Positions 2,790 to 20,690 of a DNA stretch of 38,289 nt are shown here, one piece after another. Under the pieces are notes generated by a model that was given only the letters and a program-made list of their open reading frames with translations, had not been told where the DNA came from and ran no database searches. Each line of letters starts with the position of its first letter. The first letter of the stretch is position 1. The translations under genes were made by a program, and so were the position numbers. The stretch is from Pseudomonadota bacterium (lineage in GTDB: Bacteria > Pseudomonadota > Gammaproteobacteria > Burkholderiales > Thiobacillaceae), in NCBI GenBank assembly GCA_030690985.1, contig JAUYFG010000166.1, positions 1 to 38,289 of the forward strand, read 5' to 3'.

Positions 2790-4685
2790 ATGCAATTTCC
2801 CGATCGTTTCGATGTCATCGTCGTCGGTGGTGGCCATGCCGGCACCGAGGCGGCGCTGGCGGCTGCCCGCATGGGTTCGCGCACACTGCTGCTGACGCAC
2901 AACCTCGAAACCCTGGGCGCGATGTCCTGCAACCCGTCCATCGGCGGCATCGGCAAGGGGCATCTGGTCAGGGAAGTGGATGCCCTGGGCGGGGCGATGG
3001 CGCTGGCCACTGACGAGGCCGGCATCCAGTTCCGTATTTTGAACTCCTCGAAAGGTCCGGCGGTACGAGCAACCCGGGCTCAGGCTGATCGGGTGCTGTA
3101 CAAACAGGCGATCCGCGCGCGCCTGGAAAATCAGGCCAACCTCACGCTATTTCAGCAGGCGGTGGACGACCTTGTACTGGAAGGCGATCGTGTCGCCGGG
3201 GTGCGTACCCAACTGGGCATCGTGTTCCAGGCGCGTAGCGTGGTGCTGACTACCGGCACTTTCCTGGCTGGGCTGATTCATGTCGGCCTGGAAAATTTTC
3301 AGGCCGGGCGCATGGGCGATCCCCCCTCGGTCTCCCTGGCGGCGCGCCTACGCGAGTTGAATCTGCCTGTTGGCCGGCTGAAGACCGGTACACCGCCGCG
3401 TATCGATGGCCGCAGCATCGACTTCTCGGCGCTGCAGGAACAGCCGGGCGATACGCCAGAGCCGGTGTTTTCCTTCATCGGCCGGCGAGAGATGCACCCG
3501 CGCCAGTTGCCTTGCTGGATTACCCAGACCAACGAGCGCACCCACGAGATCATCCGCCAGGGACTGGATCGCTCACCGCTTTACACCGGCGTGATCGAGG
3601 GCGTGGGACCGCGCTACTGCCCTTCCATCGAGGACAAGATCAGCCGCTTTGCCGACAAGACCGAGCACAACGTGTTTCTGGAGCCGGAAGGGCTTACCAC
3701 GCATGAGTTCTATCCCAACGGGGTGTCCACCAGCTTGCCATTCGATGTGCAGCTCAACCTGGTGCGCTCGATACGCGGCCTGGAAAACGCGCACATCCTG
3801 CGCCCCGGCTATGCCATCGAATACGACTACTACGACCCACGCGGCCTGAAACCCAGCCTCGAAACCCATGCCATTGCCGGCCTGTTTTTCGCCGGGCAGA
3901 TCAATGGCACCACGGGTTATGAGGAGGCCGCCGCGCAAGGCCTTCAGGCCGGCCTCAATGCGGCTTTGCAAGTGCAGGACAAGGCGGCATGGTGGCCGCG
4001 TCGCAACCAGGCTTATCTGGGCGTGATGGTGGATGACCTGGTGACGCGCGGTGTGGCCGAGCCTTACCGCATGTTCACCAGCCGCGCGGAGTACCGGCTG
4101 AGCTTGCGCGAGGACAATGCCGACCAGCGGCTGACCGAGATGGGCAGGCAGCTTGGCCTGGTGGATGACACCCGCTGGGCGCGTTTCGCCGGCAAACGCG
4201 AGGCAATGGTACGCGAGGCTGAGCGCCTCAAATCCACCTGGGTTAACCCGGCCAATCTGCGGGAAGAAGATGCGTTACGTGTTCTCGGCAAGCGCATCGA
4301 GCGGGAGTACAGCCTGTTCGACCTGTTGCGTCGTCCCGAGGTGGATTACGCGAGGCTCATGACTTTGCCCGGCGCGGGCGAAGCGCTCGCTGATGCCGAG
4401 TTCAGCGGGCAGGTGGAAATCGAAGCCAAATATGCGGGCTACGTTGCCCGCCAGTTTGATGAGATCGAACGCCAGCGCGGCCAGGAGGAGCAAGTCTTGC
4501 CTGCCGATTTCGACTACATGGCACTGACCAGCCTGTCCATCGAGGTGCGCCAGAAACTCAATCAGATGCGGCCGGCGACCCTGGGGCTGGCTTCACGGAT
4601 ATCCGGAGTGACGCCGGCGGCGGTTTCGGTGTTGCTGGTGTATCTGAAACGGGGCGAGTTGGCGCGTAAGGAAACCGGGGAATGA
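2790..4685 (+). CDS. mnmG: tRNA uridine-5-carboxymethylaminomethyl modification enzyme MnmG (GidA)
   Basis: MnmG works with MnmE to add the carboxymethylaminomethyl group at C5 of the wobble uridine (U34) of several tRNAs, using FAD, NADH and methylene-tetrahydrofolate. The product is 631 aa, the normal family length. It opens with the FAD-binding Rossmann motif [17 protein letters not shown], followed by the conserved [13 protein letters not shown] block. The helical C-terminal domain that docks MnmE is complete. The start ATG 2790 ([14 protein letters not shown]) was preferred to an upstream in-frame start at 2742, because family members begin just before the FAD motif. The stop overlaps rsmG by 4 nt (ATGA), so the two are translationally coupled. 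The parS site lies just upstream. Confidence 0.97.
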
Positions 4686-18755: not shown

Positions 18756-19058
18756 GCCGGTGTGGTTCTGCTGCTACTCGCACCAGGGCAGTCTATTGCC
18801 TGCACGCCGCAAGCGCGTCAGTGAAATAAATGGCGCGCTAAACTTGGCGCAACTTATCCGTTCAACCGGACAAGTGCAGGAAGCACCCCACTCTTTGAAT
18901 GCTGCGAAAAAAGTTGTTGCAATGTCGCAACGTGGTTATGAGATGGACCTGCGGCAGTTGTGCTACTAGTCGAATGTTCTAATATTCGCAAATATACTGA
19001 GCGCTCAACTTTCGATTCACCGATTTCTCTTTCTTGTCAACGTTTTAGGAGTATTCCC
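18756..19058. other. Gene-free stretch of about 300 bp before the repeat-protein gene
   Basis: No credible gene is visible. It holds an inverted repeat GTTGC-N6-GCAAC (18916-18931), a candidate promoter at 18958-18985, and a long AT-rich leader of about 70 nt that ends in a TAGGAG ribosome-binding site before ATG 19059. No terminator for corC is obvious. Confidence 0.6.
18958..18985 (+). promoter_or_regulatory. Candidate promoter of the Met-rich repeat protein gene
   Basis: TTGTGC (18958-18963) and TAATAT (18980-18985) are 16 nt apart, giving a 5' leader of about 65 nt. The inverted repeat GTTGC-N6-GCAAC lies about 27 bp upstream of the -35 and could be a regulator site. Confidence 0.45.
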
Positions 19059-19703
19059 ATGAAGATGATTTCTGCCCTGGTCCTGGCCATGATCGCCACC
19101 GCCGCTTCCGCCGAGACCCCGGAACAAACCGCCGCCAACCTGCTGGATCCCGTCAAAGCTGCCCACATCGCTGCGGACCCCAAGGCTGCCGTCGCCACCA
19201 TGACCAACCTGATGGACCCGGCCACCACCATGATCCTGATGCAGAAAGGCATGGATCCCGCCACCTTCACCAAGATGATGCAAGCCGGCATGTCTCCCGA
19301 CATCCTGAAGGCCTACATGGCCTTCATCGACCCGAACATGTACATGAAGTGGCTGGCCGCTTCCATGGACCCCAACTTCTACACCGCCGCCATGGCTCCC
19401 CTGATGAACCCCAACATGTACATGAAGTGGCTGGGTGCTCCTCTGGATCCCCGCGTCCTGCAAATGGCCGCTGCTCCCCTGAACCCCAACATGTACATGA
19501 ACTGGGCGATGGCTCCTGTTGCTCCGGCCAACCTGAACATGATGATGGCTCCGCTGAACCCCAACCTGTACACCCAATGGGCCGGCGCCGCTGCTGATCC
19601 CAAGACCTACGGCACCTGGGGCGGCTTCATCAACCCCGCCACCTACGGCAACATCGCCAACCCGTTCGCTGGTTTCTTCCCGGCCGCTCCCGCCGCGAAG
19701 TAA
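19059..19703 (+). CDS. Exported Met/Pro-rich tandem-repeat protein, 214 aa, function unknown
   Basis: I recognise no family. A signal peptide (MKMISALVLAMIATAASA, cleavage before ETP) directs export to the periplasm or outside. The mature part of about 196 residues is almost wholly made of about 14 units of 12-13 residues. Each unit opens with Asp-Pro or Asn-Pro (rarely Ser-Pro or Ala-Pro), as in DPNMYMKWLAASM, NPNMYMKWLGAPL and NPNMYMNWAMAPV. It holds about 23 Met, many Tyr/Trp, no Cys and one His. The N-terminal units are helical and Met-rich (DPATTMILMQKGM); the C-terminal ones are aromatic. It has a strong ribosome-binding site (TAGGAG), frequent-codon use and a very strong terminator, suggesting abundant expression. 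Ideas include a structural or surface protein, or Cu(I) binding through Met; none is demonstrated. ATG 19059 is fixed by the signal peptide. Confidence 0.85.
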   Translation: MKMISALVLAMIATAASAETPEQTAANLLDPVKAAHIAADPKAAVATMTNLMDPATTMILMQKGMDPATFTKMMQAGMSPDILKAYMAFIDPNMYMKWLAASMDPNFYTAAMAPLMNPNMYMKWLGAPLDPRVLQMAAAPLNPNMYMNWAMAPVAPANLNMMMAPLNPNLYTQWAGAAADPKTYGTWGGFINPATYGNIANPFAGFFPAAPAAK

Positions 19704-19721
19704 TAACGGCTAAGCAGCAGG

Positions 19722-19758
19722 AAAAAGGGGTGGAACGCGAGTTCCACCCCTTTTTTTT
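19722..19758. terminator. Strong intrinsic terminator, probably bidirectional
   Basis: AAAAAGGGGTGGAAC and its exact complement flank a GCGA loop (19737-19740), ending in eight T. The A-tract on the left makes it work for the minus strand too, closing the folate cyclo-ligase transcript from the other side. Confidence 0.95.
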
Positions 19759-19874
19759 GGTATGCCCGGTGCTGCCACGCTCCTGTGTTGGGATGCACGA
19801 ACAATTACTCGCTGATCGGCAATCCTGTATCGGTGTTCTTGTTCCGGTTTGCGGGTGATACGGCTGCGCCTGAA

Positions 19875-20504: not shown

Positions 20505-20690
20505 GGGGTCTCCCCGCTTGCGCCGACCTGGTTGCTTTCCTGAACCCAGGGGTCCAAGAGTGGTCGCAGCGCATCTGCTTCAGGCGCATGAACTAGCCAG
20601 GCGCACAACGGCAGACTTGATCGCCGCGACCTTCGCTTACGCGTATCGGTTCAAAGAATGCGCAACCTTCGCGAACGCAGCAGGGAGATT
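20505..20690 (-). ncRNA. ssrS: 6S RNA
   Basis: 6S RNA mimics an open promoter and sequesters sigma-70 RNA polymerase in stationary phase. On the minus strand the ends TCTCCC and GGGAGA form the closing stem. The 5' part contains GTTCGCGAAGG and GAACCGATACG, resembling GTTCGCAAGCGG and GAGCCGATATT of E. coli. The 3' part contains GGGTTCAGGAAAGCAACC, resembling its GGGUUCAAGGGUUACAGCC. Length (about 186 nt) and the position between zapA and the folate cyclo-ligase gene match known ssrS loci. Ends are accurate to perhaps 10 nt. Confidence 0.88.

Follow-up and report, generated by a model that had tools for sequence, protein, structure and literature searches.

A Proline-Spaced Repeat Protein Family Partly Encoded in Sulfide-Oxidation Gene Clusters of Thiobacillus-Like Bacteria: A Candidate Periplasmic Sulfur Scaffold

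Introduction

The retention of elemental sulfur in the periplasm, and the proteins that touch it, are best known from purple sulfur bacteria. In the periplasm, sulfide is oxidized by FccAB, SoxYZ carries sulfur on cysteine, and rhodanese moves sulfane sulfur. According to the portions of PMC10386293 available to us, the sulfur globules of Allochromatium vinosum are enveloped by exported, proline-regular Sgp proteins, among which SgpD is found almost only in the Chromatiaceae. In other sulfur oxidizers, a DUF302 gene has been reported between soxA and soxB (PMC5248467, available in part).

Here, a repeat protein encoded in a 38,289-nt stretch of DNA from a member of the Thiobacillaceae (hereafter the window) was compared with its relatives and with these systems. 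The reading that we favor, with somewhat less than even confidence, is that the protein is a hydrophobic, short-helix periplasmic scaffold that holds or coats zero-valent sulfur, and that its family is tied to sulfide oxidation. An unnamed conserved protein in the Fcc/Sox clusters of Thiobacillus-like bacteria would provide a concrete candidate for the sulfur-holding part.

The Repeat Protein and Its Predicted Fold

The position, strand and reading frame given for the gene in a preliminary description of the window were correct (Table 1). The leader, read by eye, comprises 18 residues and leaves a mature chain of 196 residues, in which 13 D/N-P steps, together with one S-P and one A-P step in the same rhythm, open 15 units. 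These units start at mature positions 12, 22, 35, 48, 61, 73, 86, 99, 112, 124, 137, 149, 162, 174 and 183. A spacing of 12 or 13 residues throughout had been described, which holds for 12 of the 14 steps and fails for the first (10) and the last (9) when the S-P and A-P steps are counted. Based on the D/N-P steps only, the spacings are 10, 13, 13, 25, 13, 13, 13, 12, 25, 13, 12 and 9. Ten of these 12 fit 12–13 or 24–26 residues, compared with a maximum of four in 20,000 shuffles, and the repeats are thus genuine and far above chance, as originally proposed. The identity of the mature chain with itself was raised at lags of 13 (z 6.4), 25 (z 7.0) and 51 (z 5.5) residues. Since the lag of 25 gave the strongest identity, the units appear to be arranged in pairs; the repeat length of about 12–13 residues is right for the unit spacing, and the strongest period spans two units. 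The signal at 51 hints at a still higher repeat order.

Table 1. Features of the window copy and sulfur-gene clusters containing its paralogs. Window positions are given for the first eight rows and locus labels for the remainder
Feature	Position or locus	Strand	Remarks
Repeat protein gene	19059..19703	+	214 aa, ATG start, TAA stop; translation
Signal peptide MKMISALVLAMIATAASA (cleavage before E)	19059..19112	+	Read by eye; hydrophobic leaders similar in relatives
Mature chain, 15 units each opened by D/N/S/A-P	19113..19700	+	Helix predicted for each of the first 12 units
Ribosome-binding site AGGAG	19047..19051	+	In 11/11 aligned window-type upstream regions
-10-like TATACT	18993..18998	+	TATACTG in 11/11 aligned window-type upstream regions
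TCGAAT, 17 nt before TATACT	18970..18975	+	In 10/11 aligned window-type upstream regions
Dyad GTTGC-N6-GCAAC, putative regulator site	18916..18931		Exact before 21/30 window-type members
Intrinsic terminator: 10-bp perfect stem, GCGA loop, 8 T	19727..19758	+	Sequence, fold
RHOD-DUF302-REPEAT-FccA-FccB	L176 to L181		G002, G021 twice, G030 twice, G017
SoxZ + SoxY upstream of RHOD-DUF302-REPEAT-FccA-FccB	L179, L180, L181		Second FccA-FccB pair between in L180
DUF302-REPEAT-FccA-FccB, SoxZ + SoxY upstream	L175		G013
SoxZ-DUF302-REPEAT-FccA-FccB	L130		G020
FccA-FccB-REPEAT-SoxY-SoxZ-DUF302	L182		G036

The mature chain contains 23 Met (11.7%), 23 Pro, 39 Ala, 5 Trp, a single His and no Cys, and the values previously given for Met, Cys and His were reproduced. 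A Trp in every unit had also been described, which overstates the case, as five Trp residues are spread over 15 units. The prolines lie 12–13 residues apart, with a second proline in some units. Only 21 of the 196 residues are charged, and the grand average of hydropathy (GRAVY) is +0.05.

An AlphaFold2 model of the window protein, built on an alignment of 46 members, reached a mean pLDDT of 87.3 and a pTM of 0.73. One helix of 7–12 residues was predicted for each unit starting at positions 12 to 149, corresponding to 12 of the 15 units, with an extra helix ahead of the first unit; the helix of the unit starting at 162 was broken, and the last two units, for which pLDDT fell to about 64, showed no clear helix. 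A model of a distant member (24 rows; pLDDT 78.7, pTM 0.62) consisted mostly of 7–12-residue helices in its repeat part and had two longer N-terminal helices. The period had been considered too short for most solenoids, an argument that the helices predicted in both proteins do not support; structure prediction, which had been suggested as a check for a regular solenoid, gave one short helix for each of these 12 units of the window protein. The local helix-per-unit pattern is the firm part of the prediction. Most units are thereby predicted to form one short helix capped by D/N-P, and the helices together to build a solenoid that has few charges and abounds in Met, Ala, Tyr and Trp. Searches with Foldseek using the two models found no match at E ≤ 0.001 in the PDB (8 and 4 matches at E up to 10) and none at E ≤ 0.001 among viral models. 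The predicted helix-per-repeat architecture is thus without a match among the solved structures searched.

Distribution and Diversity of the Family

The repeat part had no match in Pfam, NCBIfam or PDB sequences, and nothing significant was found in PHROGs, which agrees with the earlier statement that no described family carries this repeat. The best PHROGs value (E 0.63) was also too weak for a phage origin, which was rejected. The family was not found described in the literature searched, including the accessible parts of PMC3753534, PMC10386293, PMC5248467, PMC11237559, PMC9774250 and PMC6397845, and it may yet be in print. The Thiobacillus denitrificans genes named in the accessible part of PMC3753534 could not be tied to it.

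The genome that contains the window encodes four members: the window gene and paralogs on C300, C107 and C215. The C107 paralog (L003) carries an OmpA domain (PF00691, E 1.4e-19) C-terminal to its repeats, and no such domain was found in the window protein by Pfam; the C215 paralog adjoins a NiFe-hydrogenase gene. In a search of 61 related genomes with a single sequence, the family was present in 29 of the 37 genomes of the same family-level group, with 4–11 matches each, and in none of the 24 genomes that represent other families in the order. Among the eight group genomes without a match, G024 also gave none with a profile. Profile searches detected the family in 8 of 369 genomes of the class and in 2 of 398 genomes of the phylum, the own genome being included in both counts. 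Two weak matches of the class search were treated as false, namely a leucine-rich-like protein in G155 (L099) and a match in G405 that contains three stops. Window-type relatives in other genomes are 59–96% identical to the window protein, the nearest two at 96 and 92%. Many family matches in relatives lie in open frames of about 400–660 aa, and distant members have an extra N-terminal stretch and two or three Cys.

The G155 row (L076) was present in a first tree and left out of a second one of 110 rows. In the latter, the 30 window-type rows, so labeled from BLAST score, formed one clade (99/99), and the 8 distant rows formed another (100/100). Five hydrogenase-linked rows fell within a 12-row clade (100/100) together with seven ungrouped rows. 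Eight of the nine fcc-cluster rows were placed in a 17-row clade (99/96) that also holds nine rows with no fcc link, and the ninth branches from an unresolved base. The tree gave no firm order in which the window clade, the fcc clade and the remaining rows branched. Outside its own clade, the seven sequences that best matched the window protein in BLAST were all fcc-cluster members, at 43–49% identity.

Several additional features of the family loci were observed. In many relatives the window-type gene is followed by a shorter second family member ending in YRY (L010, 493–1455; L006, L015, L019), and none was seen after the window gene itself. In two genomes, a small exported-looking protein of 107–118 aa is encoded downstream of the C300-type paralog (L101, 5412–5768; L106, 5664–5987), with no Pfam match for the L106 copy and no NCBIfam match for the L101 copy. 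A NiFe-hydrogenase large-subunit gene, which in NCBIfam comes closest to VhuA with a score under the cut-off, lies beside some members (L103, L107, L146, L150, L151, L164). In two genomes, the OmpA-fused paralog directly follows a gene that we take to be rplQ-like, at the end of a ribosomal cluster (L003, 1393–3024; L109, 4957–6507).

Sulfur-Gene Neighborhoods

Paralogs of the window gene were found in clusters with SoxYZ, rhodanese, DUF302 and FccA-FccB genes at nine loci in seven genomes (Table 1), based on tblastn of the cluster proteins against loci L092–L188; the gene order was read directly in five loci and taken from the tblastn matches in the rest. These clusters point to periplasmic sulfide oxidation and not to copper. 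Pfam confirmed representatives of the FCSD flavoprotein, dihaem cytochrome c, DUF302, rhodanese, SoxY and SoxZ, and one SoxY and one SoxZ exceeded the NCBIfam cut-off. The label FccA was assigned from gene position and a pair of haem motifs; in NCBIfam the top match, below the cut-off, was the dihaem shuttle PdsA. Among 124 listed non-window paralogs, 10 have a listed fccB (PF21706) at a distance of 3 kb or less, with about 1.0 expected, and 114 are not near fccB. None of the 38 places at which dsrA exceeded the cut-off, spread over 30 genomes of the group, was within 19 kb of a listed non-window paralog.

Similar links were observed farther afield. In G521, which lies outside the class, one repeat gene is followed by DUF302 and another on the same contig by an exported rhodanese; these are weaker matches (E 3.8e-14 and 1.1e-11), and the strongest (C4, E 4.4e-66) has no such partners. 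In G074, a DUF302-SoxZ-SoxY group lies about 4–6 kb from the repeat gene on the opposite strand. A stretch of 7 kb there contains the repeat gene and a gene for a second, different type of repeat protein, with genes for a Met-rich CAACH protein, DUF302, a small protein with Cys, SoxZ and SoxY on the opposite strand. The second kind (L095, 9809–10501, + strand) is exported and built of about ten 9-residue units resembling MNPATYxxW; the CAACH-containing chain (L095, 10595–11590, - strand) is exported and of low complexity, rich in Met, Asn and Pro. Neither has a Pfam match. A protein of the 9-residue-unit kind is likewise encoded after the repeat gene of G271 (L073) and that of G147 (L075). With respect to sulfur oxidation in general, outside the own group dsrA exceeded the cut-off in six of the seven family-bearing genomes (two same-genus pairs included; G153 is the exception) versus 111 of 368 genomes (hypergeometric P 0.0036). 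On the other hand, seven of the eight group genomes without a family match in the single-sequence search have dsrA over the cut-off, and the family is therefore not needed for sulfur oxidation.

The same gene clusters would fit a protein that binds proteins and not sulfur, as solenoids usually do. It would assemble FccAB, SoxYZ, rhodanese and DUF302 into a periplasmic relay, and the stand-alone copies, such as that of the window, and the hydrogenase-linked copies would dock other partners. Such a scaffold accounts for the clusters nearly as well as sulfur binding does, and both the common 12-row clade of the five hydrogenase-linked rows and the OmpA domain of one paralog are in its favor. However, for a solenoid that docks proteins the chain has few charges and is hydrophobic, and most loci among L092–L188 hold none of the partner genes tested; overall, we regard this explanation as rather unlikely, at roughly one chance in a few. 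Less likely again is a general envelope protein, serving as a periplasmic filler or spacer with a peptidoglycan link through the OmpA-fused paralog and with no direct role in sulfur metabolism. The OmpA fusion, the long open frames in relatives, the several matches in every one of the 29 family-bearing genomes and, as a weak measure, the codon bias (see below) are consistent with such a filler, but in three lineages members of the family are linked to Fcc, Sox, rhodanese or DUF302 genes.

Conservation across the family bears on the binding of copper or oxidants raised in the preliminary description. The alignment of 46 members is nearly gapless across the repeats, indicating that repeat number and spacing are under constraint, and Cys is absent from the aligned part in 45 of the 46. 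At the window positions, Trp is kept in 93%, Pro in 87% and Tyr in 81% of the aligned residues, whereas Met positions hold Met in 56% and other hydrophobic residues in 29% (best single position 87%), which is unlike the conserved Met ligand positions of Met-rich copper proteins. A Cu(I) binder or methionine oxidant sink is thus very improbable despite the Met-rich, Cys-free composition of the window protein and a median Met content of 12.4% over the 46 members, given the near-fixed Pro and Trp beside variable Met positions, a Met content ranging from 3.5 to 20%, and no copper gene noticed beside any paralog, with neighbors annotated non-exhaustively.

The Window Copy and Its Control Region

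The window copy, which lies away from the sulfur clusters, belongs to a stand-alone clade that has a conserved promoter dyad and a terminator of its own. The gene stands alone, with a presumed corC-like gene on one side and the 6S RNA and a presumed 5-FCL-like gene on the other. The ribosome-binding site and terminator noted in the preliminary description are present (Table 1); the region 19704–19770 folds at -36.1 kcal/mol (z -6.2), and a simple consensus scan reported the stem on the - strand only. The same scan reported no sigma-70-like promoter, nor did it report TATACT. Of the 22 window genes scored for codon bias, the repeat gene ranked first (0.839). The reference was small, comprising 464 codons from three ribosomal genes, and gave only 0.676 for rpoA, which should be a well-expressed gene; high expression is a guess.

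The dyad was found 149–183 bp ahead of the matched domain in 21 members, all of them window-type, and no exact copy precedes any non-window-type member (131 unique family members checked). It was considered as the mark of a sulfur regulon and rejected, as TGTTGC-N6-GCAAC occurs in 35 of 37 genomes searched, at 0–10 matches per genome, with genomes outside the group among those that have it; among the 30 loci returned, which were unannotated, the sole recurring site recognized by eye was the window-type promoter. Another copy in the own genome (L219, 4017–4033, - strand; G000:C197:7016–7032) lies about 1.2 kb ahead of an FccA-FccB pair, a single case that may be chance. An SqrR-type site was likewise rejected, since the window has GAAT-N8-ATTC and the site given in the accessible part of PMC9774250 is ATTC-N8-GAAT. 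Elsewhere in the window, a 6S RNA (RF00013, 55.7 bits) was detected at 20507–20689 on the - strand beside a 5-formyltetrahydrofolate cyclo-ligase-like gene, which is an ordinary arrangement. A tRNA-SeC reported by ARAGORN at 3117–3209 (+ strand) lies within a long open frame and is probably a false call because Rfam gave no match at the gathering cut-off.

None of the 24 window-type genes has a listed fccB at a distance of 5 kb or less, and one of them has it at 10 kb or less. The own genome has fccB at six places, with FccA-like cytochromes beside five of them, and neither DUF302 nor rhodanese was found in the stretches fetched around the six. For these reasons the window copy itself is linked to sulfur by homology only. 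Its sulfur role is suggested by this homology together with the host group, in which dsrA exceeds the cut-off in 30 of 37 genomes and fccB is present in 36 of 37.

A Possible Role in Holding Sulfur

Under the favored sulfur-scaffold reading, FccAB would generate zero-valent sulfur, as polysulfide or S8, which would be passed on by SoxYZ and rhodanese. The hydrophobic surface of the repeat protein may bind this sulfur and, acting as a coat or matrix, retain it in the periplasm until its oxidation by the Dsr system, as with sulfur-globule proteins. A Cys-free scaffold would not react with polysulfide. A secreted, charge-poor helical chain rich in Met, Ala and aromatic residues and encoded among Fcc/Sox genes would most plausibly meet the product, zero-valent sulfur, and serve as its coat, matrix or carrier, although we infer the step from cluster membership to sulfur binding. 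The window copy would act as a stand-alone member under its own promoter. A more far-reaching proposal, which we hold with less confidence than the scaffold role itself, is that single helices of about ten residues capped by D/N-P form a solenoid of a new fold class, which evolved to cradle zero-valent sulfur. The family would then be a second type of sulfur-globule or polysulfide-carrier protein in the periplasm, unrelated to the first and occurring in the Thiobacillus-like family and a few other members of the phylum and partly in Fcc/Sox clusters.

Comparison with Known Systems

Proteins with an OmpA-family C-terminal domain (PF00691) share this domain with the one own-genome paralog that carries it after its repeats, and the window protein lacks a match to it. 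DUF302 proteins of sox clusters are role-unassigned sox partners in the part of PMC5248467 available, and are here encoded beside repeat genes. DUF302 (PF03625) is nevertheless a different family from the repeat protein, and three DUF302 neighbors that were scanned had no other Pfam match.

A further likeness is to SgpA, SgpB, SgpC and SgpD of A. vinosum, whose host has rDsr and which, as described in the accessible text of PMC10386293, are exported and repetitive with regularly spaced prolines, SgpA–C being hydrophobic. The window protein likewise combines a secretion signal, read by eye, with a hydrophobic, repetitive chain of regular prolines. Similar to the window gene, sgpD is transcribed as a unit by itself and has both a promoter and a terminator of its own, according to the same partial source. 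There are also differences. SgpD follows a P-X2-P pattern, whereas the window protein places D/N-P every 12–13 residues and lacks that pattern; the SgpD model has two confident helices and low-confidence loops, in contrast to one helix per repeat; and the window protein, at a GRAVY of +0.05, is less extreme than the 'extremely hydrophobic' SgpA–C. By analogy, the repeat protein may work like a sulfur-globule or sulfur-carrier protein, and it is classed here as such and not with the Sgp families.
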